Shown here: piece by piece, positions 2,935 through 20,478 of the stretch
Layout of the letters: every line of letters begins with the position of its first letter
Numbering within the stretch: position 1 is the first letter of the stretch
Virus record (IMG/VR): IMGVR_UViG_3300036768_001444
Location: 1 to 35,729 of that record
Length of the DNA stretch: 35,729 bases
Reading direction: 5' to 3' (one strand)
Origin: a virus
The notes under the pieces: generated by a model
What the model saw: only the letters and a program-made list of their open reading frames with translations
Told to the model about the DNA's origin: nothing
Database searches by the model: none
Position numbers and translations under genes: made by a program

Positions 2935-3152
2935 CCAGGACGCAGGCGGCGGGGCTTTGGGCCAACATTCCGCACCTGACGGCCCGCCGGCAGTTGCGGG
3001 GCCTCGGTTCTCGGCCGCACCCGCCGACGGCCGACGAGATTTACCAGCTCGTCCTGGCGGACACCGGCGACCCGGCGCGGGCCGATGACGCCTGGGCGGC
3101 CTATCGGGCGGAGGAATTGAGGCGGCAGCCCGCCGGAGAGGAAGCCCCATGA
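2880..3152 (+). CDS. Tail assembly chaperone-like protein, -1 frame extension
   Basis: 90 codons reached by a -1 shift at 2874-2880, giving a 187-aa fusion with the product of 2590. The extension contains AEFYGLNPWALTRTQAAGLW, then a basic stretch and a C-terminal acidic helical part. A YG-loop followed by a short helix is common in the second domain of tail chaperones. The stop overlaps the portal ATG (ATGA, 3149-3152), which supports this frame being translated. An independent start at ATG 2859 is possible but has no ribosome-binding site. Confidence 0.6.
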   Translation, partial: TRRRAEVAEFYGLNPWALTRTQAAGLWANIPHLTARRQLRGLGSRPHPPTADEIYQLVLADTGDPARADDAWAAYRAEELRRQPAGEEAP

Positions 3153-6100
3153 TTGCCAACAACGGGGCCGTCAAGGCCTTTCTGTCGCCGAGCGGGACGG
3201 CCGGCTATCGGCCGTCGATAGTCGGCTCGTTGGCCCTATTCTACGACGACGGGATCGACCATTTCCGGGTGTTTCGCGACGTGCCGCGGATGCGTCGCGA
3301 CCCCCGTGTCCGCCTCGGTCTGCGCATCATCGCCGGCCCGGTTCGTTGTGCCAAGTGGCGTATCCGTGGGTCTTCCGACGTGGCCGCCTACGTGGACGAG
3401 ACCCTTCGGTCGGTCTGGCTCCATTGGTTGCCACGCATCCTCGGGCCGCTCCTGGAGTACGGCTGGATGGGCGGCGAGGCCGCCTGGCAGGAGAGGCAGG
3501 GCCGGATTGTCCTGCGCGAGATTCGGGACTTTTGCCCGATGGACGTGCGCCCCCTGACGGTGGGGCGGGTGTTGACGGGCGTGCGCGTGTACAACGTCGC
3601 GTCCCACGGCGAAGTTACGTTGCGGCCGCCGCGGGCGTTGTGGGTCGCGAACGAATCGGAATACGGGCACTTTTACGGGCGTTCGCGCTACGAAGGGGCC
3701 TATGTGCCGTTCGTTGAGAGGCGGGGTCGGCACGGGGCGACGGACGCCCGCCGCCTGTGGTTCGCAAAGAACGCCTTCCGTAGTGGTTTGATTCGTTACC
3801 CGGCCGGCCCGATCCCCGACGAGGACGGGAACCTGGTGGACGGCCAGGACCTGGCCAACGAGATCGTCGAGAAGTTCGCCACGGGCGGGACTTTGTCGTT
3901 GCCGAACGTGCGCGACGAGCGTGGGGATTATGCGTGGCTCTGGGACGACGCGAAGGTGAACGGTGACATCCGGGGCGTCCGCGAATACGCCCACGACCTG
4001 GACCAGGAGATTCTGGAGGGCATGGGCGTGCCGCCGGAGGTCGTGGCCGCCATGAAGAGCGGGTCGGGGTATGCTGGCCGGTCGGTCCCGATGGTCTGTT
4101 TTTTGACGGGCGAGGACGAGATCGTCCAGACCGTCATTGGCGCCCTGGACCGGTGTGTGGTGGCTCACGGAGTGCGTGTCAATTTTGGCAACGTGCCCTA
4201 CACGATTGAGCCCGTGTCGCTGGTCGAGACGCTCCTGGGGCGTCCGTCGGCGGGCCGCCGGGTGCCGCCGACGAAGGCGCTACCGAGCCCAGGCGGTCTT
4301 CCCCCGTCGCACCAGCCCTATGAAGGCCCGCGCGGCGGCGTGGGGTGGCGGGACCCTGACACCGGGTCGGTCCATTACGAACATCCTTCCTGGGACGGTC
4401 CTGATGGCGGCGTGCTCAGTCTGTCGCACGAGCGTGCCCCGAAGGGCGGGATCACCGTCGGCGGCCGGTTTTACAGGGGCGGCCAGTTCATTCCCGGTCG
4501 GGCGATGGAGGAGGCCACGCCCGAGGAGCGGGCCGCGATTGAGGCCGACAAGGAGCGGCACCGTCAGCGGCTCAGGGAGATGGGCGAGCCGGACCGTGGC
4601 CGGCTGCGAGAGGCGCTTCGGCCGTATGAGGGCGTGGACCTCACTGCGGAAAACACACGGTCGGCGAGGCGGGCTTACGGGGCGCTGCGCTCCTTGCACG
4701 GGGACCTGACCGTCCACCGGATTTCCCAGTTGATCGACCAGGACCGTCAGGCGCTGGAGGCGGAGGAGCCGGGCAGTTCCATGCACGAGTTCTACCGGCG
4801 CCGGCTTGCCGCGTTCCGGCGCATGCTCGACTGGCACGAGGCCCACGAGGCCGCGTCCGGCGGTCCGGCCAAGGCGGCCCCGCGTCCTCCGAGTGCGGAA
4901 GGCGGCGGGCCAAAAGGTGGCGGCAAGGGTGGCGGTCGGCATGGCGTGGAGGCGGACGGGCCGGGTGGGAGGTCCGAACCGGCCAAACCGGCCGAACCGG
5001 CCGAACCGGAGGCGTCCCGGTCGCCGGCATCAAGGCCGTCGCGATCGCGCCCGGCTGAGGCTCCACGGGAAACTCCACAGGGCGGTCCGGCCGAGGATTC
5101 GGCTGGGCAAAAGGCTACGGCGGCAACGCCGGATCGGAAGTCGGCGAACGCGGTTGATGTTGCCTACGAGCAGGTCCGGCGGTTTCTGAACGGGATTTCC
5201 GAGCGTATTCCGCCGCCGGCCGAGATCGATGCTTTTGTCAGTGATTTGAAGCGCAACCTGTTCAAGGAGGAGTTTGGCAAACTGTTAAATCGTGTTGGCA
5301 TTGCGGGCCGGCCGCGAAGCCTGGCGGCCGCCGCCAAGGCGTTGCGGGACGTTCTGCGCAACCAAGCGGACATGCAGGCCAAGGTCAATCAGATTGCCGC
5401 CGGCGCGCGTCAGAAGGCCGAACCGGAGGCGGCGGACACAAAAGGGCCCGTTTCCGACGCCCCGACGCCGCCAGGGGGGCCGGCCCGGAAGGCCGAGGCG
5501 AAGTCTTTGGCGGGAGGGACCGCCCTGCACCCCTTGGCCCAGAAGGTGGCCGACCGCTTCGGCGAAATGCTCGATGGGCACCAGGACCTTGACCCGAAGA
5601 AACGGGCCTCGTATCGCGAGGCCATGACCGGAGTTCTGGCCGCAATGCCGCCCGAGGCCGTCGCCCGGATCGACGCCGGCGTCTCCGGCATCCACTTTTA
5701 TTCCGACGCGGACCGGCTCGGCCAGGCCCTGGCCGCCATAAACCCAAGCATCAAGGAAATTGTGAGGTCCGGCCAGCGGGTTTTAGGGGCCTTCTCGATA
5801 ACGAGCCGAAAATTGCACCTCGACGGGGGTGGGCCCAAATATTCGGCACGCGAGGTTTACGCCCACGAGCTGGGGCATGCGCTCGACGGTCCGCGGAACG
5901 AGGTCAGCGACAGTCGGGAATGGCGGCTGGCCTGGAACGCCGAGATCGCCAGTGGGGAAGTCCTGGGGTCTTATGCCGCCATCAACGTCATCGAGGGCAT
6001 GGCTGAGTTTGCCCGCGCCGTTTACGGGGGCAAAGTGGACCTGAGCGTCCTCGCCCGCTCCTGTCCGCGCTGCACGGCGGTGTGGAAGTCCAAGGGGTGG

Positions 6101-6154
6101 TGGCCGGAGTCGCCGCAGGAGCCGAAGTTGGCGAAAAAAAGGAAATCACGATGA
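3149..6154 (+). CDS. Portal protein (DUF935/Mu gp29-like) fused to a C-terminal metalloprotease domain
   Basis: 1001 aa, about twice the usual portal length. Residues 1 to about 385 look like a DUF935-type portal, with the wing and stem regions and the typical LEGMGVPPEVVAAMKSGSG motif. The portal forms the DNA entry ring of the capsid. Next come GPRGGVGWRDPDTG near 391 and GITVGGRFYRGGQFIP near 435-450, short motifs seen ahead of cargo or toxin domains in phage minor head proteins. A long Pro/Gly/Ala-rich linker follows. Residues about 790-985 form a zincin, with H906-E907-LG-H910 in YAHELGHALD and a downstream EGMAEF at 949-954 that can supply the third ligand. An injected effector or head-maturation protease is inferred. 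It starts by ATGA overlap with the preceding frame. Confidence 0.8.
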   Translation: MIANNGAVKAFLSPSGTAGYRPSIVGSLALFYDDGIDHFRVFRDVPRMRRDPRVRLGLRIIAGPVRCAKWRIRGSSDVAAYVDETLRSVWLHWLPRILGPLLEYGWMGGEAAWQERQGRIVLREIRDFCPMDVRPLTVGRVLTGVRVYNVASHGEVTLRPPRALWVANESEYGHFYGRSRYEGAYVPFVERRGRHGATDARRLWFAKNAFRSGLIRYPAGPIPDEDGNLVDGQDLANEIVEKFATGGTLSLPNVRDERGDYAWLWDDAKVNGDIRGVREYAHDLDQEILEGMGVPPEVVAAMKSGSGYAGRSVPMVCFLTGEDEIVQTVIGALDRCVVAHGVRVNFGNVPYTIEPVSLVETLLGRPSAGRRVPPTKALPSPGGLPPSHQPYEGPRGGVGWRDPDTGSVHYEHPSWDGPDGGVLSLSHERAPKGGITVGGRFYRGGQFIPGRAMEEATPEERAAIEADKERHRQRLREMGEPDRGRLREALRPYEGVDLTAENTRSARRAYGALRSLHGDLTVHRISQLIDQDRQALEAEEPGSSMHEFYRRRLAAFRRMLDWHEAHEAASGGPAKAAPRPPSAEGGGPKGGGKGGGRHGVEADGPGGRSEPAKPAEPAEPEASRSPASRPSRSRPAEAPRETPQGGPAEDSAGQKATAATPDRKSANAVDVAYEQVRRFLNGISERIPPPAEIDAFVSDLKRNLFKEEFGKLLNRVGIAGRPRSLAAAAKALRDVLRNQADMQAKVNQIAAGARQKAEPEAADTKGPVSDAPTPPGGPARKAEAKSLAGGTALHPLAQKVADRFGEMLDGHQDLDPKKRASYREAMTGVLAAMPPEAVARIDAGVSGIHFYSDADRLGQALAAINPSIKEIVRSGQRVLGAFSITSRKLHLDGGGPKYSAREVYAHELGHALDGPRNEVSDSREWRLAWNAEIASGEVLGSYAAINVIEGMAEFARAVYGGKVDLSVLARSCPRCTAVWKSKGWWPESPQEPKLAKKRKSR

Positions 6155-6366
6155 AGCCGTTGCTGGATCAGATTTTCGACAAGCCCATTGTCGTTGACGG
6201 GGTCCTGGCCGACCTTGAGGCCGTTGACGGAACGCCAGGCCCGGACGGTGCGGCGGCCGCAACTGGCCAAGACGTGCGGGGCGACGGTCCGGCCATAAAG
6301 GATGCAGGCCGCGACGGTCCTGAAGTGGCGGAGGGTGGGTGGGTAGTTCCCACGCTGGAACCATGA
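6151..6366 (+). CDS. Small hypothetical protein between portal and MuF genes
   Basis: 71 aa and not recognised. The N-terminus (MKPLLDQIFDKPIVVDGVL) is followed by an acidic, Gly/Ala/Pro-rich, probably disordered tail. The start overlaps the portal stop by ATGA (6151-6154), with an AAAGGA ribosome-binding site about 5 nt before it. Its stop overlaps the next start in the same way (6363-6366). It is therefore a translationally coupled member of the head operon. A head-assembly or scaffold role is only a guess from position. Confidence 0.6.
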   Translation: MKPLLDQIFDKPIVVDGVLADLEAVDGTPGPDGAAAATGQDVRGDGPAIKDAGRDGPEVAEGGWVVPTLEP

Positions 6367-6665
6367 GCGCGCCGGCCGAACTGTTTCCCGATTACCCCGA
6401 CGGCGACTTCGATCCCGACGGGGACCTGTTCCCCGACTATCCCGAGGAGCCTCAGGGCGGCCCGCGTTCGCCGGCCGCCCTGAGCCTGGGCGGGGCCGAA
6501 GCCCTGCGGGAGGACCACGAGGCCGTCCGGGCTGGCCGGCTCGTGGACGACGTCATTGCCCGCGGCACGGTCGCCGGCGTCGCCGTCTCCGAGGAAGTGC
6601 GCCGCCAGGTCCGCCAAGCGGTTGCCGAGGCCGTAAAAAAAAACACTTTTCCGCGGCCGTCCTGA
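6363..6665 (+). CDS. MuF-type head protein, zero-frame N-terminal product
   Basis: 100 aa if no shift occurs. The first 40 residues are acidic and repetitive (ELFPDYPDGDFDPDGDLFPD), followed by a helical segment (REDHEAVRAGRLVDDVIARG). The frame crosses nine A residues at 6635-6643 and stops soon after at 6663-6665. The -1 frame joins it directly to the MuF domain. The start ATG overlaps the previous stop (ATGA). A weak GTAG-N4-CACGCT element at 6343-6356 lies 6 nt before the ATG and could be an internal promoter, but its hexamer fits poorly. Confidence 0.6.
   Translation: MSAPAELFPDYPDGDFDPDGDLFPDYPEEPQGGPRSPAALSLGGAEALREDHEAVRAGRLVDDVIARGTVAGVAVSEEVRRQVRQAVAEAVKKNTFPRPS
6638..6644 (+). other. 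Candidate -1 frameshift site A-AAA-AAC
   Basis: The zero-frame codons are GTA AAA AAA AAC ACT. A-AAA-AAC is one of the best-known slippery heptamers for tandem -1 slippage. After the shift the reading continues CAC TTT TCC and stays open to 7570. The A run (6635-6643) is nine bases long, the same as at 2872-2880, and the shift is again -1. The two sites lie in consecutive genes around the portal. Downstream pairing was not evaluated. Confidence 0.7.
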
Positions 6666-7570
6666 TTGACGAGGTGCGGCTGGTCATCGCCCGGTGCGAA
6701 CCCCTTCTGGCCCGGGCCCTGACGGAGACCCTGATCGCCGCTTGGGTCGCCGGCACGGTGCCGGTCGTGGCCAAGCTGCCGCCGCCAGATGCCTGGGGCC
6801 GTCTGGCGGACGCCGCGGCCTTGCCTAGGCCGGTCATTCCGCCGGCCCTGCCACCGCCCCTGTCGCCCGCGTCCGAAGCCGGCGGCGACGGCGGCGATGG
6901 CCCGCTGGTGCGGTTCCCCCTGATCGAGCGCGCGGCACAAGACTTGGCCGCGCGACGGGTCATGACCCGCCAGGACTTTGACCGGCTGGCCGAGGACGCC
7001 AGGGCTTCCGCCTTCACCGTCTCCCGGGTCGCGGGCCTGGACGCCATCGAGAAGGTCCGCGACGCCCTCGCCGGGGACGTGCTCCGGGGCGGCACGCTGC
7101 GGGAGTTCGTCCTCGCGGTCGATGACGCCGTGGGCCGGTCGGCCCTGTCCGGGGCCCATGTCGAAACCGTGTACCGGACGAACGTGCTGACGGCTTACGC
7201 CGTGGGCCGGGAAGCAATCCTGGCCCACCCGCTCGTGTCCGACCTCTTTCCCTACCGCCGGACCGTGCCCGTCCGGGACGAGCGGCTGACGGAACTTTGC
7301 CGGATCATTTCGGAAAGCGGCCTGAACGGCACCGGGGTTTTCCGGGCGGACGACCCGGTGTGGCGAAGGTTCAAGCCTCCGCGACACTGGAACTGCCGTT
7401 GCCTCGCCGTCGCCATGACCGTCGAGGATGCCGCCGCGTCCGGCATCAAAGAGGCCCGTGAGTGGCTCCGGACCGGCCTGCCGCCGTCGGCCCCGGAGTA
7501 TGTTCCCTACCCTCGCGTTGAGCTTCCGGAGGGCTGGGCCCCGGTCGGCGACAGCCTGGTCCCGGCCTGA
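6644..7570 (+). CDS. MuF-type minor head protein, main domain (-1 frame)
   Basis: 308 codons in the -1 frame, about 402 aa when fused to the product of 6363. The C-terminal part has the MuF/gp30 signature: YRTNVLTAYAVGRE, then RADDPVWRRF and the cysteine pair in HWNCRC. MuF proteins bind the portal inside the head and often carry injected cargo. Without frameshifting, the only start is a GTG at 6674 (298 aa), which has no clear ribosome-binding site and would lose the helical leader. The domain assignment is firm; the frameshift product is inferred. Confidence 0.75.
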   Translation, partial: HFSAAVLIDEVRLVIARCEPLLARALTETLIAAWVAGTVPVVAKLPPPDAWGRLADAAALPRPVIPPALPPPLSPASEAGGDGGDGPLVRFPLIERAAQDLAARRVMTRQDFDRLAEDARASAFTVSRVAGLDAIEKVRDALAGDVLRGGTLREFVLAVDDAVGRSALSGAHVETVYRTNVLTAYAVGREAILAHPLVSDLFPYRRTVPVRDERLTELCRIISESGLNGTGVFRADDPVWRRFKPPRHWNCRCLAVAMTVEDAAASGIKEAREWLRTGLPPSAPEYVPYPRVELPEGWAPVGDSLVPA

Positions 7571-7587
7571 CGCCCGGAGATGCTTCA

Positions 7588-7601
7588 GTAGGCCGTATAG
7601 T
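7588..7601 (+). promoter_or_regulatory. GTAG-N4-TATAGT late promoter, tail/glycosyltransferase unit
   Basis: GTAG at 7588-7591 and TATAGT at 7596-7601, then seven bases (GGGGGCC) and ATG at 7609. With the usual distance from a -10 box to the start point, transcription would begin at or one base before the ATG, so the mRNA should be leaderless. It precedes the unit 7609-13030. Confidence 0.65.
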
Positions 7602-7608
7602 GGGGGCC

Positions 7609-9675
7609 ATGCTGATCGAGGTAGGCGGCATGCCGGTCATTCCGCTGCACGACGCGGCCGAGGCCATGGCGGACTGCGCGGACTTCCTGCACCCGGACTT
7701 CACCCGGGCCAATTCTTTCGTCTGCCCGGCCGGGGAGGCGCCGGCCCGGGGCTGGTTCCTCCTCCACCGCGACCAGGTGGACCAGCTCAAAAGCGAAGAC
7801 CGGCTGGTGGACGCCGTGATCGCCGACGACGACGGCTACCGGCAGTGGCTCCGCAAGCTCGTTTTTTTGCACGCCGTCCGGATTTCGCCCGGCGCGCCGA
7901 ACGACCCGAACGCCTGCTATCTGGCGTACTTCGCCGACCGGCGTTGGCTCTGCCACAACCCGACGTTCGCGTTGCCGGTCAACCGGCAGTACAACGTGCG
8001 GGCCCCGGGCTACACGACGACGGACTACTACGAGGATTCCCTGGACGACGGCGAGCCGTGGACCTGGGACCGGATGGTGGAGGACCTCTGGACGCTCAAC
8101 GCGGCCCGGCTGGGAGATTATCCCGGCCTGCCGGTCGTGGACGCGGCGGAATCGACCCTGGAGCCGGACGGCCGGCCGGAGGGTTGGCGGTTCGTGGGGG
8201 TTTCCGCCTGGCGGGCCCTCTGTCAGGTGTTAAGCAGGATCGGCTGCACCGTCGCCGTCGATTTGGCGCAGAGCGAACGCCAGTACACCATCGTGCGTGT
8301 CGGCCAGGCGGACAACGAGGCGGACCGGACCTTGGCTCGGGCAATCGGCCAGGGTCGGGACGTGTTCGACGCCGAGTGCGTCGAGGCCGTTCGCGGGAAG
8401 ATTCCCTACGGCGTCGAGGTTTACTTTCGCCGGGTGGAGAGGCACACCGGCAGCGAGCCGACGACGCCCAGGTCGTCGCGCCAGTGGTCCACGAACCCGG
8501 TATACACGGTGCAGGTGGTCGGCCCCGAAAGCGGCAAGGCGGAACCGGGGGTGTACGCCCCAATCTGGGACGACCTGCCGGCCTACTTCGGTCCGGACGG
8601 GGAGGTCACGGACGATTCGCGGGAGGCGTGCGAGACGCGGGCGAGGGAAAGGGCGGACGACTTTTACCGGCAGCTGCGTTCGTCGGGCGGCGGCCGCCTG
8701 CATCAGGCCTTTGCCGGCGCGGTCGGGTTTCGGCCGGGGAGCACGATCAAGGCCGTGCAGTGGAAGCAGCTCCAGGCGGCGACCGAGCATTTCGGCGGCC
8801 TGGTGACCGAGATCGTCCGGCACCCGTTCCGCGTGATGACCTTCGACGAGGACTGGCAGTCCTACGTCCGGGATTCCAATCGGGCCGCGCCGCCAGACCT
8901 GACGCCCGCGCTGCCGATGTATCCGGAATTGAAGCAAACCGTCCGCGTCGATTCGCTCCCGACCGGCTACGGCCCGGGCACCCGGACGCGGTACGGCGGC
9001 ACGGTGCTGCGGTACAACCCGGAGACGGACAGCTTTCTCGAGGGCGAGACGTGTCTCGTCCGCGACCTCAACGGCAGCGCCCTGGCCGTCGGCCGGAACT
9101 ACACGGGTCGCCTGTCCGGGGAGGCGGACGGCCTTCCGGTCTACCTCGTGGACGGCGAGCTGCCCGCCGGCTACGGGCAGTTCTGCGTCGATTTGGTCGA
9201 AAGCGATTGCGTGAACGGACAGTTCACGAAGGTCTTCAAGAGCCTGCACGCCAACGTGCCAATTTGGATTGAGGATGTGCCGTGCAAGAAGCCGCCGGGA
9301 GGGCCGCCCGGGTCTCCCGGCTCTTCGTGCCCGACCGGGCAGGTGGACACGAAAGGCTTTACCCCGTGCGACTGCATGCCCGCGCAATTCATGATTGATG
9401 CCGTTGGGTACGCCGGCGACGGTTGCGGCAGTCTCAACGGGTCGTTCCTGATGCGCTACCGCCAGGACGGGCAGAAATGGGACACCGGCGGAAGTCCGAG
9501 CGACTTCACGCTCTCCTATGCCGCGCCGCTCTTCCGCGTGACGGACCGCTTCGGCAACGTCTGGACCAAGGACGGCACACAGTGGGACTGTCTGGGGTCG
9601 AACACGTTGACGCTCAGCGTCATGGCACCCGGCTGTCTCGACGTTCCACCCGATGTTACGGTGAGGCCAGCGTGA
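7609..9675 (+). CDS. Probable tail/baseplate hub protein
   Basis: 688 aa; no single family could be named. The middle part has a segment typical of baseplate-hub or late-control-type proteins, including RDVFDAECVEAVRGKIPYGV near residues 265-285. A second characteristic stretch is STIKAVQWKQLQAATEHFGG near 382-401. The C-terminal fifth has a Pro/Gly-rich linker and several cysteines (CKK, CDCMP, GDGCGS), suggesting an exposed appendage. It begins a new transcription unit directly after the MuF gene and ends with TGATG overlap to the cysteine-rich protein. The ATG at 7609 is preferred over the upstream GTG at 7600, because that GTG overlaps the -10 box. Confidence 0.55.
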   Translation: MLIEVGGMPVIPLHDAAEAMADCADFLHPDFTRANSFVCPAGEAPARGWFLLHRDQVDQLKSEDRLVDAVIADDDGYRQWLRKLVFLHAVRISPGAPNDPNACYLAYFADRRWLCHNPTFALPVNRQYNVRAPGYTTTDYYEDSLDDGEPWTWDRMVEDLWTLNAARLGDYPGLPVVDAAESTLEPDGRPEGWRFVGVSAWRALCQVLSRIGCTVAVDLAQSERQYTIVRVGQADNEADRTLARAIGQGRDVFDAECVEAVRGKIPYGVEVYFRRVERHTGSEPTTPRSSRQWSTNPVYTVQVVGPESGKAEPGVYAPIWDDLPAYFGPDGEVTDDSREACETRARERADDFYRQLRSSGGGRLHQAFAGAVGFRPGSTIKAVQWKQLQAATEHFGGLVTEIVRHPFRVMTFDEDWQSYVRDSNRAAPPDLTPALPMYPELKQTVRVDSLPTGYGPGTRTRYGGTVLRYNPETDSFLEGETCLVRDLNGSALAVGRNYTGRLSGEADGLPVYLVDGELPAGYGQFCVDLVESDCVNGQFTKVFKSLHANVPIWIEDVPCKKPPGGPPGSPGSSCPTGQVDTKGFTPCDCMPAQFMIDAVGYAGDGCGSLNGSFLMRYRQDGQKWDTGGSPSDFTLSYAAPLFRVTDRFGNVWTKDGTQWDCLGSNTLTLSVMAPGCLDVPPDVTVRPA

Positions 9676-10373
9676 TGGCGACGGTCATGAATGCCAACCC
9701 GCCGGCCCCGACAAGTCCCGGCGTCCCGCTTCAGCCCGCCGGGTACGGCGGGCCAGGTGGCTCGATGTGCTGCTGTGGCCAGACGGGCGGCGGGTATCTC
9801 AAACGCAGTTACGACATATATCAGCCTTGTTGTGACTGCGGGCCGATGCCTGCCTATTGGGTTGTTCTCGCCGAGGGGTTTACCCCAAATTATTGCAACC
9901 ATCCGGGGTGCAGTCGTTTCAATGGAAGACATATTTTGTGTCAAACTGATCCATTGGGCATCATAAATTGGCCTTTGTTCTGTTATGGTGGGGCCCCCGT
10001 GGGGCGGGATGCTTGCCAATGGGCGATTTTGAGTAAAGAACGATTCGTAATATGTCCCGAAATAGGAATTATAGGAGAAATGACAAACTTGTTTTGGCAA
10101 TTGGTATTTCCTCTTTATTATTTTCCAGACCCAAATGTGCCTTGTCTCTCTCTCGCCAGATTGTTCTGTGGGTACGAAATTGTGTATTTTGGGACAGACA
10201 TTCGCTTTGGAAGCGCTTACGCCCAATATCGGCCAATGACATTGGACACTCTCTGTCATGGAACAACGAGATGGGAAAAAGTCCATTGTTTTGACGCGAC
10301 CTTCAATGGCATCTTCGTACCTGGCCTCTGTCTTTGTCCGCCATTCGTCACGACGGAGCCTTACATTCCATGA
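9675..10373 (+). CDS. Cysteine-rich protein in an AT-rich island, candidate receptor-binding protein
   Basis: 232 aa with about 18 cysteines spread along the chain (MCCCGQ, CCDCGP, YCNHPGC, LCLCPP). There are many aromatic residues and no recognised domain. The first 45 codons are GC-rich like the surroundings, but from about 9800 to 10365 the DNA becomes AT-rich and uses codons such as ATA, AGA and TTA that are rare elsewhere here. The gene is coupled to its neighbours at both ends (TGATG and ATGA). A domain swap bringing in a foreign surface module fits the position after a tail protein. A disulphide-rich tail tip or adhesin is a guess. Confidence 0.55.
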   Translation: MATVMNANPPAPTSPGVPLQPAGYGGPGGSMCCCGQTGGGYLKRSYDIYQPCCDCGPMPAYWVVLAEGFTPNYCNHPGCSRFNGRHILCQTDPLGIINWPLFCYGGAPVGRDACQWAILSKERFVICPEIGIIGEMTNLFWQLVFPLYYFPDPNVPCLSLARLFCGYEIVYFGTDIRFGSAYAQYRPMTLDTLCHGTTRWEKVHCFDATFNGIFVPGLCLCPPFVTTEPYIP

Positions 10374-10924
10374 CAACCTTGACGGTCCTGCCGACATCAG
10401 ACATCGACAAGGAGCGGCCGTGTCGGCACCGCGGCGGGCGGCCTGACCCGGACGAGCCCTTGAGGCCGTGCGGCAGCAAGTGGCTCGTCAACAACCAAAC
10501 GGTGCCCGAGGAATTTTGCCGGGTCTGCCCCTACGCGGACGTGCCGAACCCTCGCACCAGAAGGTGGCAGTCGCTTTGGCGGCGGTTGACGTTTCGGCTG
10601 TGGCGGTTGCGCCGGCAGGGATGGCTGCGGCGGCTGGTCGCGGACCTCTGGCACGTCGTCCGGCGTCCGTGGCTGTTGCCGCGTCTGGCGCGGGCCGTGG
10701 CCGAAGACGCCGCGGACGGGTTCGCGCGTCTGGAGCAAGGCGAGTACCAGCGCCGGCTGGAAACGTGCCGCCGCTGCCCGGGCGGCCACTTCGACGCGGA
10801 CGCCGGGCGTTGCCGGGCGTGCGGCTGTTCCGCCGGGCCGGGATCAATCTACGACAAGCTGGCCATTCCGGGCCAGAGGTGCCCGCACGGTTACTGGGGG
10901 CCGCATGTTTCGTCGCATTCGTGA
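10370..10924 (+). CDS. Zinc-ribbon protein next to the glycosyltransferase
   Basis: 184 aa. There is an N-terminal cysteine cluster (CRHRGG, then FCRVCPY). A strongly basic, Trp/Arg/Leu-rich middle (about residues 63-105) could be an amphipathic membrane or nucleic-acid contact. The C-terminal zinc ribbon has CRRCPG, CRACGC and RCPHGYW. Similar C-terminal ribbons occur in phage proteins encoded beside glycosyltransferases. The ATG overlaps the previous stop (10370-10373), and the end overlaps the next gene by 20 bp. The function is unknown; metal binding is the only supported property. Confidence 0.6.
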   Translation: MTTLTVLPTSDIDKERPCRHRGGRPDPDEPLRPCGSKWLVNNQTVPEEFCRVCPYADVPNPRTRRWQSLWRRLTFRLWRLRRQGWLRRLVADLWHVVRRPWLLPRLARAVAEDAADGFARLEQGEYQRRLETCRRCPGGHFDADAGRCRACGCSAGPGSIYDKLAIPGQRCPHGYWGPHVSSHS

Positions 10925-12401
10925 CTGGTTCGCCAGACGGACCGCCCCGAGGCCGGCCCGGGAGTACGACGTGCCGATGACCGGCCGCGTCGAGTGCTGG
11001 CAGGCGCACCCGGAGATGCCCCTGGAGGCAATGATCGACCTGATCCAAAGGTCGCCGCCCTGCTACTGGTCCGCGCCGGACTGGCACAACTGGCCGGTCA
11101 CAATCGAAGCCCACCGCGAGGCCATGCGCCGCTACGCCGCGAGCCTGCCGCCGTACCCGGAAGGCGAGTTCGACGGGCGGGGCATCGTGATCTGCGCCGG
11201 CGGCTGGCGGTTCTTCGCCAGCCTCTACGTCACGGTCCGCATGATCCGTGCGTGCGGCTGCGAGCTGCCCGTCGAGGTGTGGTATCTGGGGGACAGCGGC
11301 GAATACGACCCGCGCATGGGTCTGATCCTGAAGGGCGTGACCTGGCGTGACGCCAACGCGGTCGCCCGGGAGCGCGGGTTGCGGCCCCGGTTCCTCGGCG
11401 GCGGACAGGGGTATCCGCCGTGGGAGCTCAAGCCGTTCGCGGTACTGTTCAGCGGCTTCCGCCAGGTCCTCTCCCTCGACGCCGACAGCTACCCGGTCCG
11501 GCGGACGCGGCGCGGCTCGCCCGACTGCATCGCCCGCCTCTTTTCGTCCAAGGCGTTTCGCGACCGCGACCTGTTCTGGCCCGACCGGTGCGGCCCCCTG
11601 CGGGCGGAAGGCTGGCGTCGGTTCGGCCTCCCGCCCCAGACGGGGCGGGAGGCCATCGAGAGCGGCCAATTCCTTGTGGACAAGCGGCGGTGCTGGAAGG
11701 CCCTCAACGTGGCCTGGTGGCTCAACGAACACCGGGACTATACCTACAAACTCGAATCCGTCGCCGGCGTTTACGGCGACAAGGACCTCTTCGACATCGC
11801 CTGGACGTATACCCAAACCCCCTGGCAGTTCCCATGGCCGCGGCCGGCGTTCTGGGACAACGCCTACATTCAGAAGGACTTCGACGGGGACGTCCTGTTC
11901 GTCCACCGGACGCACTCCAAGTTCCGCTTCAACGAAACGGACCGGTTCCAGTCTTATGCCGGAGGCCCCGTGGCCCCTTACGGCCTGCGGTTGAAGGAAC
12001 ACTGCCGCGAGGACGAGGCCCACGCCTATTACCGAGAGGCGGAACGGCTGGTTTACCCCGAGCGATTTTTCCGCGTTCGAGGCAGTCGCGACCGCGACGA
12101 GTGGGACGACGCATGGCTGCGGGGCGTTCCGGGACTGCCCGACCGGCTCGACGGCCTGACGGTCCTGGACCTGGACGCCGGCGTGGGCGCCTTCGCGGCC
12201 CTCTGCCTCGAACGCGGGGCCGCGCACGTCACGGCGGTCCAGGACGACCCTGCCCTGATCCCTCATTTCCAGCGGAACGTCGCCCGCTGGGCCCGTGAGG
12301 GCCGGCTGACGCCGGTCTACGTCCGCAACGAAGCACCACCAGAGGCCGACGTGATCCGGCGGCCGAACCAACCGTTGATCATTCGGCCCAAGGAGAATTG
12401 A
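10905..12401 (+). CDS. Glycosyltransferase (mannosyltransferase-like) with a C-terminal methyltransferase fragment
   Basis: 498 aa. The N-terminal two-thirds look like a nucleotide-diphosphosugar transferase of the MNN-type alpha-mannosyltransferase group. The DxD metal site is D192-A-D194 in LSLDADSYPV, followed by ESGQFLVDKRRCW and YGDKDLFDIAW, which are family hallmarks. Residues from about 415 carry a Rossmann-type motif I (TVLDLDAGVGAFAALCLERG) and VTAVQDD. These are the start of a SAM-dependent methyltransferase that then stops short, so that domain is probably truncated. Phage glycosyltransferases modify host surface polymers or virion proteins. It starts inside the preceding gene. Confidence 0.7.
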   Translation: MFRRIRDWFARRTAPRPAREYDVPMTGRVECWQAHPEMPLEAMIDLIQRSPPCYWSAPDWHNWPVTIEAHREAMRRYAASLPPYPEGEFDGRGIVICAGGWRFFASLYVTVRMIRACGCELPVEVWYLGDSGEYDPRMGLILKGVTWRDANAVARERGLRPRFLGGGQGYPPWELKPFAVLFSGFRQVLSLDADSYPVRRTRRGSPDCIARLFSSKAFRDRDLFWPDRCGPLRAEGWRRFGLPPQTGREAIESGQFLVDKRRCWKALNVAWWLNEHRDYTYKLESVAGVYGDKDLFDIAWTYTQTPWQFPWPRPAFWDNAYIQKDFDGDVLFVHRTHSKFRFNETDRFQSYAGGPVAPYGLRLKEHCREDEAHAYYREAERLVYPERFFRVRGSRDRDEWDDAWLRGVPGLPDRLDGLTVLDLDAGVGAFAALCLERGAAHVTAVQDDPALIPHFQRNVARWAREGRLTPVYVRNEAPPEADVIRRPNQPLIIRPKEN

Positions 12402-13730: not shown

Positions 13731-14267
13731 ATGGCGCGGAGGCACTATTCCGAGGCGGAGAAGGCGGTCGCCCTGGCGGCCCTGGACGCCAACGGCGGCA
13801 ACGTCCGCCGGACGGCCAGGCAGCTCGGCATGCCCAAACAAACTTTGAAACTGTGGGCCAGGGGCCGGGGCATTCACGAGCCAGTGCCGCAGGCCCGTGT
13901 GGCCCAACGCGCGGCCCTCGCCGACCGCCTGGAGGAAGTCGCCCATCAGCTGCTCGACAGCACCCTGGAGAAGATCGAGGGCGCGCCGCTCCAGGCCGTG
14001 TTCGTGTCGCTCGGCATCGCCGTTGAAAAGATGCGCCTCCTGCGCGACCAGGCAACGAGCATTCTCAATCATGGTGACCTCAGTCACGACGAGCGCGTTG
14101 CCCGCGTCATGGCAATCCTGGTCCAGGGATCGGGTGGAGAAGGCGATCCGCGCCTTGCCGAAGGAGGCCCTCCAGGAACTGGACAAATTCCTCCGGTCGG
14201 TGCCGACCCCGATCTGGACGCCACTGCCCGGCCCGCAGACCCTGGCCTACCGCAGCAAGGCGGATGA
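13731..14267 (+). CDS. terS: Terminase small subunit
   Basis: 178 aa. The N-terminus (YSEAEKAVALAALDANGGNV, then RRTARQLGMPKQTLKLWARG) is a helix-turn-helix like that of phage small terminases and transposase-like HTH proteins. A helical oligomerisation region follows at about residues 60-130. It would recognise packaging DNA and recruit the large subunit encoded next. From about 14130 the frame overlaps the large-subunit gene, and its residues turn low-complexity (Gly/Pro/Asp), so the natural end is uncertain. The promoter leaves no room for a ribosome-binding site. Confidence 0.7.
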   Translation: MARRHYSEAEKAVALAALDANGGNVRRTARQLGMPKQTLKLWARGRGIHEPVPQARVAQRAALADRLEEVAHQLLDSTLEKIEGAPLQAVFVSLGIAVEKMRLLRDQATSILNHGDLSHDERVARVMAILVQGSGGEGDPRLAEGGPPGTGQIPPVGADPDLDATARPADPGLPQQGG

Positions 14268-15675
14268 GGTGTTTTTCGGGGGCGCGGCCGGCGGCGGAAA
14301 AAGTTTCCTCGGCCTAGGACTCGCCCTCACGGCCCATCGCCGCAGCCTGATCCTCCGCCGGGAATCCGTGCAGCTGGGGGAGCTGGTCGAACAGGTCCGC
14401 CGTCTGGTGGGACGCCGCGGCTCGTGGCGGTCCAACGGCCCCTACGGCGGCATCCTGCGGCTGGACGGCCGGGTCATCGAGTTCAACGGCTGCGAGCGCG
14501 AGAACGACAAGTACAACTACCAGGGACGGGCTTACGACCTCTACGTCTTCGACGAGGCGTCGCACTTCTCCCGGACCCAGGTGCAGTTCATCATCGGCTG
14601 GAACCGGACGGACGACCCGAACCAGCGGTGTCGCGTCCTGTTGACCGGCAACCCGCCGACGACGCCGGAGGGGCGCTGGGTCGTCGAGGATTTCGCCCCC
14701 TGGCTCGACGCACAGTTCCACCGCCCGGCCGCGCCCGGCGAACTTCGGTGGTACACGGTCCTCGACGGAAAACTGACCTGGCTCGAATCGTCGGACCCCG
14801 TCCTGCACCGGGGCGAACGCATCGTCCCACGCAGCCGCACGTTTTACCCGGCGCGGCTGCAAGACAACCCCATTTACATGCGGACCGGCTATCTGGCCCG
14901 CCTCCAGGCGATGCCGGAACCGCTCCGGTCGCAACTGCTCTACGGCGACATGACCGCCGGCATGCAGGACGACCCGTGGCAGGTGATCCCCACGGCCTGG
15001 GTCCGGGCCGCGCAGGAACGGTGGCGGCCCGACGGGCGGCCGCCGACCGGACTGTCGTGCCTGGGCGTGGACGTCGCGCGTGGCGGGGCGGACAAGACCG
15101 TCATGGCCGAACGCCACGGCCCTTGGTATGCCCACTTGCACAAGGCGTCCGGCAGCGACACGCCCGACGGGCCGGCCGTAACACGAATGATCGTCCGGAC
15201 GGTCCAAGAGGCCCGGCGGCGGCACCACAACCTGAACCCGCGCGTCAACATCGACGTGATCGGCGTCGGGGCGTCGGTTTACGACGAGTGCCGACGCCAC
15301 TACCGGCAGGACGTGCCATACGTCAAGGCCGTGGACTTCCGCGAGCGCGTCGGCCAACGCGACCGTGCCGGGGTCCTGACGTTCAAGAACTTGCGGGCCT
15401 ACGCCTACTGGTCGTTCCGGGAGGCCCTGGACCCGGAACACGGCGACAACCTGGCCCTGCCGCCCGATTCGGAACTGCTGGCCGACCTGACGGCGGCCCG
15501 CTGGCAGCCCACGCCCGACGGCGTCAAGATCGAGAGCAAGGAGGAGATCGCTAAGCGCCTGGGCCGCTCGCCGGACTGCGCCGACGCCGTCGTCCTGGCC
15601 CACCTGGAACTCGGGCCGATTGTCATTCCGACGCCGACCGTCATCCCTCTGAGGACGCACCATGCAAACCGTTGA
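14134..15675 (+). CDS. terL: Terminase large subunit (packaging ATPase-nuclease)
   Basis: 513 aa from GTG 14134. The Walker A motif is GGAAGGGKS near residues 49-57 and Walker B is YVFDEASH with D140-E141. A coupling motif (LTGNPP) follows. The C-terminal RNase H-like nuclease shows GVDVARGGADKT, IGVGASVYDE and DCADAVVLAH, which supply the acidic metal ligands. It pumps DNA into the prohead through the portal. The start is uncertain: ATG 14071 in the same frame is possible, but GTG 14134 has GGGAT upstream and fits the domain start. It overlaps the small-subunit frame. Confidence 0.92.
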   Translation: MEKAIRALPKEALQELDKFLRSVPTPIWTPLPGPQTLAYRSKADEVFFGGAAGGGKSFLGLGLALTAHRRSLILRRESVQLGELVEQVRRLVGRRGSWRSNGPYGGILRLDGRVIEFNGCERENDKYNYQGRAYDLYVFDEASHFSRTQVQFIIGWNRTDDPNQRCRVLLTGNPPTTPEGRWVVEDFAPWLDAQFHRPAAPGELRWYTVLDGKLTWLESSDPVLHRGERIVPRSRTFYPARLQDNPIYMRTGYLARLQAMPEPLRSQLLYGDMTAGMQDDPWQVIPTAWVRAAQERWRPDGRPPTGLSCLGVDVARGGADKTVMAERHGPWYAHLHKASGSDTPDGPAVTRMIVRTVQEARRRHHNLNPRVNIDVIGVGASVYDECRRHYRQDVPYVKAVDFRERVGQRDRAGVLTFKNLRAYAYWSFREALDPEHGDNLALPPDSELLADLTAARWQPTPDGVKIESKEEIAKRLGRSPDCADAVVLAHLELGPIVIPTPTVIPLRTHHANR

Positions 15676-15907: not shown

Positions 15908-15928
15908 GGCCGCCAGGATTACGCGGCC
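15908..15928. terminator. Hairpin between convergent genes
   Basis: GGCCGC (15908-15913) pairs with GCGGCC (15923-15928) around a 9-nt loop that holds the stop codon of the minus-strand gene. It starts right after the plus-strand stop. There is no T run, and bidirectional termination is inferred. Confidence 0.4.
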
Positions 15929-17592
15929 AGGGCGTCGGAAATGTTCGGGCTGCCGCTCGACGGCAACTGGACCTTGTAACGCTTGCGGAAAAACTCCTGG
16001 AACTTGCCGGCCTGGTCGTTGGCCACGGTGAAGGTCGTCCGGTCGCCGGAGATCCATCGGGTCTGTCCCGCCACGACGACCAGCCCGACGCCACCGTGAT
16101 ACGTCACGGCCTCCAGCGCCAGGGAATCGACGTACACGGCCACGGCGTTTGTGAGCGTCCCGGTCACCTCGACGACGAGCTTCCAATCGGCCGGCAGAAT
16201 GGTCGGCGTGTTGATCCAGAAATGGGGCAGGGCCCAGTCGGTGGGGAACGCCGCCGCGGGCAAGACGACGCAATCGCCCTCGACCCCGGCCGTCACTCGC
16301 GTGACGGACTTGGCCGGGGACCCGCCGGTCAGACCACTAACGTCCGCGTCCACAAGGTTTTGCGGCCCGGGCAGGCCGTACAGGGTGATTCGGTGCGTGA
16401 CGTCCGGCGGCGACCCCGCTTGCGTCGCGACGACGACACACTCCATACCCTTGAGCAGGCGTAGGGCCGCCTGGACCTGGGCGCTCGTGGCGTTGTAGGC
16501 CAAAGGCGCGGTCGTTTGCGTGCCGCCGTAAGGGCCCGTCCAGGAGATGGTGTACGTCCCGCCGGTGGGCGACCCCGAGATTTGCAAGTCCTGGACTTCG
16601 TTCGTCGGGGCCGTCGTGGCGTAACCCGTCCCGGCGAAGCGTATGCCCAACTGCCCGGACGCCGGGACGGACGAGGCCTTCACGCGCAGGGACAGACAGT
16701 AGCGGCGGCGGCTCTTGAGGAGCGACGGCGGCACCGACTGTTCCAAGCTGATCGTTGCCTGTGCGCCGTTTCCCAGGAGCTTGGCCGCGGAACTGCCACG
16801 GAAGACGTTGGAGGCCTCCCGGAAGACGTGGGTTCCGGCCGTGCCGGCGGCAATCGTCCAGTTGGACGGCGTGTTGTCGGACCAGTTCTCGAAGTCGCCG
16901 TCCTGGACGGTCCTGGACCCGTTGGCGCAGGCGACCGTCGGACCCTGTCCCGAGCCCTCGTCCTGGTATCCGAGTTCCGCGTCGGGGATTCCACCGCGCC
17001 AGGCGAACAGTTCGGCCCCTTCGGCCGTCCCGTCCCGGATGCTGTCGGCGACGCACTCCACGACCATCGTTTCACTCGGCACGGCCAGTTCGGACGCCAG
17101 ACCGTTGTAGCGGATGTGAGGCGCCGCGCCTTGGAGGGGCGAGTTCCACCCGTCGAGGACTTTCGTGGCCAGGACCACGCCGGTGCCGGTGTTGGACGCG
17201 CTCGCCGTCGCGCTGCCGAGCGTGACGGTGTTTTTCTGCACGGTCTTGCCGTCGTCCACCATCTGCTGGATCAGCGCGGCGAGGACGGCCTGGATGCTGG
17301 CCTGGGGCACGCGGAGCTGTTCGAGGACGGTGTCGCGGTCCAGCAGGGTCCGGTCGGCGTAGCCGGCCAGGGCCTGGCGCACGCCCGTGACCTGGCCGCG
17401 GAAGCCCTCATAGGTGCCGTACAGTCCTTCGATGATCGCTGTCAGGTCGGCGGCCTCGTAGAGGTCCACGATCTCCTTGAGGTCGGCCGGGTAGGTGGTC
17501 GTGGCCAGGGACAGGGCCGCGTTGATCTTCTTGATGATCTTGCCGAGGCGGCAAAACACGCCCGAATTCGCCGTCGTGTAGTCGAAGGCCAT
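15919..17592 (-). CDS. Tail-fibre-like structural protein on the minus strand
   Basis: 557 aa. The N-terminal 120 residues are helical (GKIIKKINAALSLATTTYPA onward) and may be a coiled attachment part. A Thr/Ser/Gly-rich segment follows. From about residue 230, DGDFENWSDNTPSNWTI begins a carbohydrate-binding-module-like beta-sandwich of the kind found in tail fibres. A second beta-domain (about 350-420) contains GTYTISWTGPYGG. It is the only recognised virion gene on this strand. It has its own GTAG-type promoter, a leader of about 40 nt and AGGAAC before the ATG at 17592. Its inverted placement suggests a moved or invertible host-range module. Confidence 0.6.
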   Translation of the reverse strand: MAFDYTTANSGVFCRLGKIIKKINAALSLATTTYPADLKEIVDLYEAADLTAIIEGLYGTYEGFRGQVTGVRQALAGYADRTLLDRDTVLEQLRVPQASIQAVLAALIQQMVDDGKTVQKNTVTLGSATASASNTGTGVVLATKVLDGWNSPLQGAAPHIRYNGLASELAVPSETMVVECVADSIRDGTAEGAELFAWRGGIPDAELGYQDEGSGQGPTVACANGSRTVQDGDFENWSDNTPSNWTIAAGTAGTHVFREASNVFRGSSAAKLLGNGAQATISLEQSVPPSLLKSRRRYCLSLRVKASSVPASGQLGIRFAGTGYATTAPTNEVQDLQISGSPTGGTYTISWTGPYGGTQTTAPLAYNATSAQVQAALRLLKGMECVVVATQAGSPPDVTHRITLYGLPGPQNLVDADVSGLTGGSPAKSVTRVTAGVEGDCVVLPAAAFPTDWALPHFWINTPTILPADWKLVVEVTGTLTNAVAVYVDSLALEAVTYHGGVGLVVVAGQTRWISGDRTTFTVANDQAGKFQEFFRKRYKVQLPSSGSPNISDALAA

Positions 17593-17640
17593 GTTCCTGT
17601 TCCCGCAGGACGTGGACGGAATGGCTGCCTGACAGGCCCC

Positions 17641-17654
17641 AGTGTAAGGCCTAC
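17641..17654 (-). promoter_or_regulatory. GTAG-N4-TACACT late promoter, minus-strand fibre gene
   Basis: On the minus strand GTAG (17654-17651), four bases, then TACACT (17646-17641). The predicted start is near 17634 and the ATG is at 17592, so this unit has a true leader with AGGAAC. It is the only minus-strand copy of the late motif seen, and it stands back to back with the promoter at 17696. Confidence 0.6.
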
Positions 17655-17695
17655 TTGCCGGATCGCCTGTCGGACCACTTGACGCGCGGATTTCG

Positions 17696-17709
17696 GTAGC
17701 CCTTAGGCT
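17696..17709 (+). promoter_or_regulatory. GTAG-N4-TAGGCT late promoter, capsid unit
   Basis: GTAG at 17696-17699 and TAGGCT at 17704-17709, then seven bases (GGTACGC) and ATG at 17717, giving a leaderless mRNA. A TTGACG 19 nt upstream of the hexamer is the only -35-like box near any of these promoters. Confidence 0.65.
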
Positions 17710-17716
17710 GGTACGC

Positions 17717-18988
17717 ATGGCAAGGGTCAAGAAGGACATCATGTGGCCTGGCGAGGTGGACCTGCCCGACGGCCGCGGCGGCCGCCGGCGGCTCCGCTTT
17801 ACGCCCCAGTTCGTCGCCCACCTGGGTCGGCGGATGCGGGACATGATGGCCGCCGGCCTGTCGATCCCACTGGCCTGGGAGCACCAAGACGAGGCCAAGC
17901 CGCAGACGCCCGAGGAACAGGCCCGCCGCAAAGCCGAGGCGGCCAAACTGACGCTGGGCCGGGCGACGGCGGCCGAACTCGGCCCCGACGGCGTGGTTCA
18001 CGGGGAATTCGAGGTCCCCCTGGACGAGGACGCGCGGCGTCTGCCGAGCGTCGGCTTCGTCTCGCCAGAAATCCGTTGGAACTTCCGCGACGGTACGGGG
18101 CGACTCTGGCCCGGCCCGTCCATCACCCACGTGGCCGTCACGGCCAAGCCGGTGTGCCATTGGCAGCGCCCGTTTACACAGTCAGCGGTGGCAGCCTCTC
18201 CGGCCGTGGCATTGTCCTTGGCCGTTTCCAGGTTGCGGCGCGGCCCGGCCGCCGCGTCGCCCGATTTGGTCCGCCTGTCACTCACCGACCTAGTCCCCAT
18301 CCGCCTGGGAGAATCCGCGATGCCCGAGACGAGCGAGAAGAACAAGGACCAGGAGCGCCAGGGCGACGCCGGCCTTCGGCCGCTGATCGAGGCCCTGCGC
18401 GAGGCGGGCCTGACGATTCCCGACGAGGTGACCGACCTCGACGGCCTCATCATCGCCGTGAAGGCGTCGGGGTCGCCGGCCGCGGCCGACACGGCCGAGC
18501 CCGAGGCGGTGCCGGAACAGGAGACGTCGCCGCCGGCGGCGGCACTCATGAGCCGCGAGCAGTTGCAAGAGCTGACGCTCAAACTGAGCCGCGCGGAGGA
18601 GCGGGCCAAACTGGCCGAAAGCCGGGCCGTCCAGGCGGAACAGGCGAGCCTGAAGGGCCGCATTCACGCCCTTGCCGCCTCCGGCCGGATCGGCCCTCGC
18701 CTCCGTGAGTCGCTCCTGGCGGAACTCAAGACCGTCCGCCTGTCCTTGGACGAGCGCGGCGAACTGGCACCGGTCCCCATTCTGAGCAAGGTCGAGGCCT
18801 ACGAGGCGCTTGAGCCGAACACCTCATGGGCGGCCGAAGCGGCCCAGTTGTCGCTGGGCGAACGTGAGGTGGAAGTTGAACCACCCGACAGCGTCGCTGA
18901 CGCGCGCGCGACGGTGCAGGAGATCGTCCGGCTTTCTGGGTGCGACGAGAAGACGGCCGAGGGGATCGTCGCCAGGCTAACGCGCTAA
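17717..18988 (+). CDS. Mu I-like capsid protease and scaffold protein
   Basis: 423 aa. Residues 1 to about 160 resemble the Mu gpI protease: a start such as IMWPGEVDLPDG, then PSVGFVSPEIRWNF and HVAVTAKPV. The C-terminal half is charged, helical and coiled-coil-rich (LTLKLSRAEERAKLAESRAV), as expected for an internal scaffold. It would shape the prohead and then process it. An internal ATG at 18320, with GGGAGA about 8 nt upstream, could give a separate scaffold of about 222 aa, as in Mu. Its place before the decoration and capsid genes fits this role. Confidence 0.75.
   Translation: MARVKKDIMWPGEVDLPDGRGGRRRLRFTPQFVAHLGRRMRDMMAAGLSIPLAWEHQDEAKPQTPEEQARRKAEAAKLTLGRATAAELGPDGVVHGEFEVPLDEDARRLPSVGFVSPEIRWNFRDGTGRLWPGPSITHVAVTAKPVCHWQRPFTQSAVAASPAVALSLAVSRLRRGPAAASPDLVRLSLTDLVPIRLGESAMPETSEKNKDQERQGDAGLRPLIEALREAGLTIPDEVTDLDGLIIAVKASGSPAAADTAEPEAVPEQETSPPAAALMSREQLQELTLKLSRAEERAKLAESRAVQAEQASLKGRIHALAASGRIGPRLRESLLAELKTVRLSLDERGELAPVPILSKVEAYEALEPNTSWAAEAAQLSLGEREVEVEPPDSVADARATVQEIVRLSGCDEKTAEGIVARLTR
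18308..18322 (+). promoter_or_regulatory. Internal ribosome-binding site and in-frame start for a nested scaffold
   Basis: GGGAGA lies about 8 nt before an in-frame ATG at 18320, at the boundary between the protease half and the charged helical half of the gene. Nested scaffold genes sharing the 3' end of the protease gene are known in Mu and lambda. Use of this start is inferred. Confidence 0.45.
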
Positions 18989-20379: not shown

Positions 20380-20436
20380 AACGTGGCTAGGCTGACGAGC
20401 CGAAACGGCGGGTCTACCCCACCCGCCCGCCACGTT
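20380..20436 (+). promoter_or_regulatory. Three-way-junction RNA leader before the capsid gene
   Basis: AACGTGGC (20380-20387) pairs perfectly with GCCACGTT (20429-20436). Inside lie two hairpins: GGCT-GACG-AGCC (20390-20401) and GGCGGGT with ACCCGCC around a 7-nt loop (20407-20427). A further CCGCC/GGCGG hairpin follows (20448-20462). This occupies most of the 134-nt gap before the GTG start of the capsid gene. An mRNA stability or translation-control element is inferred, and attenuation is possible. Confidence 0.5.
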
Positions 20437-20478
20437 TACCTAGGGGACCGCCTGGGGGGCGGCTAGCGAGCATGAACC

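Follow-up and report, generated by a model that had tools for sequence, protein, structure and literature searches.

A cysteine-rich protein from an AT-rich island in a GC-rich phage probably fills an exchangeable host-contact slot beside the tail hub

The one strong AT-rich island in the viral DNA that we analyzed sits in a gene, P0001, whose product we consider a fairly probable occupant of an exchangeable host-contact (receptor-binding) slot at the tail tip, with a body taken from a lower-GC source. Phage receptor-binding proteins generally combine a retained N-terminal attachment region with interchangeable bodies and are encoded beside the hub. Here, we describe the composition of P0001, the predicted hub encoded directly upstream of it, and the proteins found at the same position in related phages and proviruses.

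Composition and codon usage of the island gene

The window, by which we mean the whole stretch of DNA analyzed, is a single virus record of 35,729 bases with a GC content of ∼0.68 except in one island. Across non-overlapping 570-bp windows, mean GC was about 0.676 to 0.677 (standard deviation, 0.027). The lowest-GC segment of that length (9807 to 10376) had a GC of 0.465, compared to a minimum of 0.605 elsewhere in the window, and the maximum-likelihood AT-rich segment was 9795 to 10410. The P0001 gene (9675 to 10373, plus strand) encodes 232 amino acids, including 18 cysteines, the number that the original prediction had estimated. That prediction located the island at 9800 to 10373, which describes the AT-rich part well but not the gene, since the latter begins at 9675. 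Its central observation, an abrupt change within one gene from a GC-rich 5′ end to about 570 bp of AT-rich DNA, was borne out. Codons 1 to 41 (9675 to 9797) have a GC of 0.715 and a GC3 of 0.70 to 0.85 in 20-codon windows, and they encode a Pro/Gly-rich linker followed by an N-terminal Cys cluster, MCCCG (amino acids 31 to 35). The break comes after approximately codon 41, and the remaining 191 codons (42 to 232; 9798 to 10370) make up an AT-rich, Cys-rich body with a GC of 0.468 (z = −7.9), against about 0.677 for the window.

The codons of this body had been called unusual, and a codon usage profile confirmed that they are. For the same amino acids encoded with the phage's own codon usage, the expected GC3 of codons 42 to 232 is 0.845, and the minimum in 1,000 simulations was 0.764; the observed GC3 is 0.455. 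The amino acid makeup of P0001 is therefore not the cause of its AT-richness, and the signal is carried by synonymous usage. ATA, AAT, TAT, TTT, and TGT are ∼5 to 30 times commoner in the island than elsewhere in the phage. The body thus displays codon usage foreign to its genome beyond any amino acid effect, as would be expected of horizontally acquired DNA.

The reading frame of P0001 is coupled to both of its neighbors. Its ATG overlaps the stop codon of the upstream gene, P0003, in the sequence TGATG (9673 to 9677), and its own stop codon overlaps the start of the downstream gene, P0004, in ATGA (10370), so P0001 looks co-translated with the block. This coupling bears on whether the plus strand is the coding one, because an antiparallel open frame of 293 amino acids (9516 to 10397, minus strand) spans the whole island. 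It would surprise us greatly if P0001 were an open frame that arose by chance in inserted DNA, or if the true gene lay on the opposite strand. The minus strand is open because the island, despite its AT-richness, has no TTA, CTA, or TCA in the plus frame, and nothing in Pfam matches the minus-strand translation. We favor the plus frame because of its coupled start and stop and its protein-level similarity, Cys motifs included, to the C-terminal module of P0003; moreover, this frame passes through 191 AT-rich codons without a stop.

The putative tail hub upstream of P0001

The island had been placed after a tail protein and before a glycosyltransferase. The upstream half of this setting stands, as the product of P0003 (7600 to 9675, plus strand; 691 amino acids) has a predicted tail-hub fold at residues 1 to about 430, followed by extra C-terminal modules. 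The downstream half needs correction, as the glycosyltransferase gene is separated from the island by P0004 (10370 to 10924). Sequence searches of Pfam, PHROGs, and PDB did not reveal P0003 as a hub. For AlphaFold2, we aligned its N-terminal domain with seven homologues (8 sequences), which yielded a model with a mean pLDDT of 64 and a pTM of 0.65; full-length P0003 modeled without homologues had a pLDDT of 32. Foldseek searches of PDB with this moderate-confidence model returned an eCIS hub (E = 1.5e-7), VgrG, a P1 baseplate chain, Mu baseplate chains, and Mu gp44 (E = 2.7e-4), with TM-scores that were modest (0.3 to 0.45), as expected from such a model. Viral tail/GPD proteins were matched as well. 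On the strength of these structural matches, P0003 is a probable tail hub. It shares its predicted fold and its possession of extra C-terminal modules with known tail hubs (VgrG, Mu gp44, T4 gp27, and the GPD family) and differs from them in escaping sequence libraries and in having a Cys module apparently related to P0001.

This module, preceded by a Pro/Gly linker, occupies the C terminus of P0003 (about 9280 to 9672, plus strand) and has a native GC of 0.647. Its resemblance to P0001, which the original prediction did not mention, is found near the start of the two sequences [C..GQ...PCDC(x)MPA...NG] and again at their ends (TxWx...PGxCxxPPxVTxxP) in the A3 alignment. Shuffling gave a z score of about 5, also when every Cys was fixed in place, a significance somewhat inflated because the aligned segments were picked after inspection. 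In the same test, neither the N-terminal part of the hub nor P0004 produced anything consistent against P0001. Judged by their sequences, P0001 and the hub Cys module are probably distant paralogues. A linker and Cys motifs common to both ends would also be expected if P0001 were a tandem duplicate of the hub module that diverged in place and became AT-rich through relaxed selection or mutation bias. We think this unlikely. The hub module has a normal GC, whereas the P0001 body has a GC of 0.468 and a GC3 of 0.455, which makes a simple recent duplication improbable; the flanking genes are GC-rich under the same mutation pressure; and a related locus described below (L185) has a body that is AT-rich too yet shows no similarity to P0001 that we could detect.

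Related loci and their host group

Relatives of the window were sought with the hub and with a Mu-type portal gene (3149 to 6154, plus strand; PF06074), which has homologues in loci L148 and L158 to L164. These searches recovered a pair of proviruses from a single genome, G418 (L148/L149 and L152), six distinct viral contigs with GC contents of 0.45 to 0.53 (L158 to L164, L161 being the same as L162), and loci in another seven genomes of the class (L179 to L185). P0003 matches in two other loci, L146 and L147, were rejected as chance. The peptidase gene at 31375 to 32865 has matches of 39 to 43% identity in genomes belonging to the same phylum as a Phycisphaerales genome, which points to planctomycete hosts and so to a virus of planctomycete-type bacteria.

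Several features of the surrounding genes deserve mention in their own right. The portal is 1,001 amino acids long and contains a zincin-like HELGH motif (YAHELGHALDG) in its C-terminal region, near positions 5850 to 5890; this region is absent from the shorter L148 homologue. Between the portal and hub genes lies a gene for a Mu F-like head morphogenesis protein (6674 to 7570, plus strand; PF04233, phrog_220). Planctomycete proviruses have counterparts of the portal, the hub, and other genes, but for the terminase gene TerL (13897 to 15675) the match, in L149, is weak. TerL shows ∼38 to 51% identity mostly to proteobacterial (pro)phage terminases, and by its sequence it appears to be a mosaic packaging gene. 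A tail-sheath/major-tail-like gene lies on the opposite strand (15919 to 17946, minus strand), with a very similar gene in L149 (E = 1e-83). Finally, an int-alpA RNA (Rfam RF02996; 46.8 bits, above the gathering threshold) was detected at 20380 to 20446 (plus strand), just upstream of the gene at 20479 to 21558, and seven related loci contained no such match.

The slot downstream of the hub

A hub gene followed by a slot gene is an arrangement kept in L148, L152, L158, L159, L164, L179, L180, L182, L184, and L185. P0001, directly downstream of the hub gene, takes the same position, which is the one expected of a tail-tip receptor-binding protein. Across the relatives, the proteins in this slot are largely unlike one another and differ in length and content. 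In L148 and L152 the slot protein comprises a Cys cluster, a propeller-like part (our reading of its repeats, which have no database match), and a Cys module. L159 has a protein of 708 amino acids, L164 one of 226 amino acids with GGSCCC at its start, and L179 and L180 have proteins of 337 to 377 amino acids with an N-terminal CCC or CxCC. Cys-rich proteins also fill the slots of L158, where the protein ends at the contig edge, of L184, where it has two domains, and of L185 (227 amino acids, 16 Cys). Lectin-like proteins are among the occupants too, and shortly downstream of the L180 slot is a protein with a Laminin_G_3 (concanavalin-like lectin) domain (6335 to 7882). In one relative, L182, the syntenic protein is a recognized tail fiber, with a match to Mtd_N (PF18454, E = 3e-16) and to PHROG tail fiber families. 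The original prediction of an exchanged module agrees with these dissimilar occupants, with the Mtd_N fiber in L182, and with the position of the break in P0001, between the Cys cluster region and the body; its alternative suggestion of a decoy found no support.

A further arrangement was seen in L160 (11601 to 14327), L161 (11540 to 14263), and L163 (11636 to 14344), where the hub domain runs directly into a Thr/Ser-rich, Cys-rich tail within one protein (63 to 65 Cys in about 908 amino acids). Family-2 glycosyltransferases come next in these three loci and might glycosylate the Thr-rich linkers of the fusions. Downstream of the glycosyltransferases in L160 is a type II hammerhead ribozyme (RF02276; 18101 to 18165, minus strand).

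Such similarity as the slot proteins show near the N terminus amounts to a motif, CC, and not to an alignable domain. CC occurs within the first 70 amino acids in 10 of the 11 slot proteins, compared to the 3 to 33% expected from the Cys content of each, a statistic that we devised after viewing the sequences and whose significance is therefore somewhat inflated; the bodies are dissimilar. Among the 33 genes of the window, only P0001 has CC in this region. Leaving aside the hub's own module, pairwise similarity between P0001 and the other slot proteins was not significant, and so we do not claim that they form one homologous family.

The genes that follow the slot recur as well, as Zn-ribbon-like proteins or glycosyltransferases come after it in several loci. 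In the window these are P0004 (10370 to 10924, plus strand), a Cys/Zn-ribbon-like protein with the motif RCPGGHF..CRACGC and weak matches to DUF6171 and phrog_13558 that had gone unremarked in the original prediction, and a Mannosyl_trans3-like glycosyltransferase (10905 to 12401, plus strand; PF11051, E = 9.4e-20). The closest downstream arrangement is that of L185, in which the next gene is homologous to the window glycosyltransferase (E = 1e-30) and has a Zn-ribbon-like region fused to it. Such a recurring block, with a Cys-rich P0004 followed by an enzyme and with Cys cluster motifs that could bind metal, might suggest that the P0001 body is itself a Zn-ribbon-like, metal-binding partner of P0004 and the glycosyltransferase in a modification reaction and not an adhesin. 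We regard this as quite improbable, because the other occupants of the position are a tail fiber, lectin-like and propeller-like proteins, and hub fusions, none of them enzymes.

Composition breaks in other slots

L185 also provides the closest parallel to the composition of P0001. Its slot has a GC of 0.47 against 0.58 for the provirus (z = −6.6), with 0.60 in the first 30 codons and 0.45 in the remainder, and its GC3 is 0.41 compared to 0.70 to 0.73 in the L185 hub and glycosyltransferase. The anatomy is that of P0001: a native N-terminal Cys cluster, an AT-rich and Cys-rich body, and a Zn-ribbon/glycosyltransferase gene next. The original prediction had held that homologues with the same composition throughout related phages would indicate long residence; no such homologues were found, and L185 is alike in plan with an unrelated-looking body. 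The slots of L164 and L180 display a modest AT shift, and those of L148, L158, L159, L179, L182, and L184 display none relative to their own genomes (in L184, GC3 is about 0.75 in the slot and 0.72 in the hub open reading frame).

Searches for homologues and traces of transfer

A Pfam search of P0001 up to E = 1 gave no match (and hence no Mtd_N domain of an Mtd-type tail fiber); PHROG, PDB, phage, and plasmid entries gave none either, and no lectin or fiber fold was recognized. The search for homologues that the original prediction had proposed returned none for the body in IMG/VR, genome contigs, phages, or plasmids, and so we infer the donor and the exchange from composition. The sole other copy of P0001 is in IMG/VR record 3300035183_001123, which is identical wherever compared (window positions 1 to 20398), and IMG/VR single-protein pattern scans with P0001, P0003, the glycosyltransferase, the portal, and the Mu F-like protein found this identical record only. 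Of the loci returned by a TerL scan, about 40 from viruses and 80 from genomes, none shared the island neighborhood. When 392 genomes (phylum of a Phycisphaerales genome) were searched with a profile built from the two Cys module sequences, the matches did not exceed chance level. When we looked for a repeat that could have mediated recombination, only 10- to 13-nucleotide matches were present. A diversity-generating retroelement was also considered and rejected, as there is no RVT_1 in the window, a record that may be a fragment.

AT-rich composition and an absence of homologues are typical of morons, and P0001 could be accessory cargo of this kind, acting outside the virion in lysogenic conversion, defense, or superinfection exclusion. 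The island contains one promoter-like match, though 0.6 would be expected by chance. We consider this reading rather unlikely given that P0001 overlaps translationally with both neighbors, that its position is kept in relatives and holds a tail fiber in L182, that it resembles the Cys module at the C terminus of the hub, and that neither Pfam nor PHROGs returned an effector-type match.

DISCUSSION

The reading that we prefer is that P0001 fills a variable tail-tip slot just downstream of the hub in a planctomycete-associated lineage of phages and proviruses. Its N-terminal linker and Cys cluster, which have the phage's own composition, would probably dock the protein at the tail tip. The Cys-rich C-terminal body, which disulfides or bound metal would stabilize, probably touches the host surface as an adhesin or receptor-binding module. 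Receptor binding by P0001 is plausible, and we infer it, as we do the location in the virion, the chemistry of the cysteines, and the donor of the body. Slot bodies would be swapped between phages, with that of P0001 coming from a lower-GC source and not yet ameliorated. The donor may itself have belonged to this lineage as one of its low-GC members; the relatives with GC contents of 0.45 to 0.53 are possible candidates.

Known systems offer parallels. Phage receptor-binding proteins and tail fibers, such as Mtd of BPP-1 and the L182 protein, are likewise encoded just downstream of a hub or tail-tip protein, and they retain an N-terminal part while their C-terminal bodies differ and turn over rapidly. 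P0001 departs from Mtd-type fibers in having no Mtd_N or fiber domain, in its Cys cluster N terminus and Cys-rich body, and in a window without a reverse transcriptase. According to one report (PMC8567305), the walls of planctomycetes contain Cys-rich YTV proteins. These proteins resemble P0001 in being Cys-rich and are found on the surface of bacteria from the likely host group, which would make Cys-rich tail proteins an attractive match; P0001 has no Pfam match linking it to them, and the connection is ecological speculation. More tentatively, we propose that planctomycete-associated phages have a hitherto undescribed class of tail-tip adhesins. In such a class, an N-terminal Cys cluster would serve as a plug, docking to the hub through metal or disulfides, and would bear bodies, whether Cys-rich, lectin-like, or propeller-like, that are exchanged freely. 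These adhesins would be kept alongside a Zn-ribbon protein and glycosyltransferase and would possibly match the hosts' Cys-rich walls.

The tail adhesion proteins of planctomycete phages are little covered in the literature that we searched. Our analysis places a probable host-contact slot across more than 10 related loci, where current family libraries fail to recognize it except in one case. The slot may be found by a simple signature: a hub gene, then an open reading frame with an N-terminal CC cluster, often followed by Zn-ribbon and glycosyltransferase genes. In two of these loci, the window and L185, the compositional break lies at the junction of the N-terminal region and the body, which makes the modular exchange of host-contact bodies directly testable.
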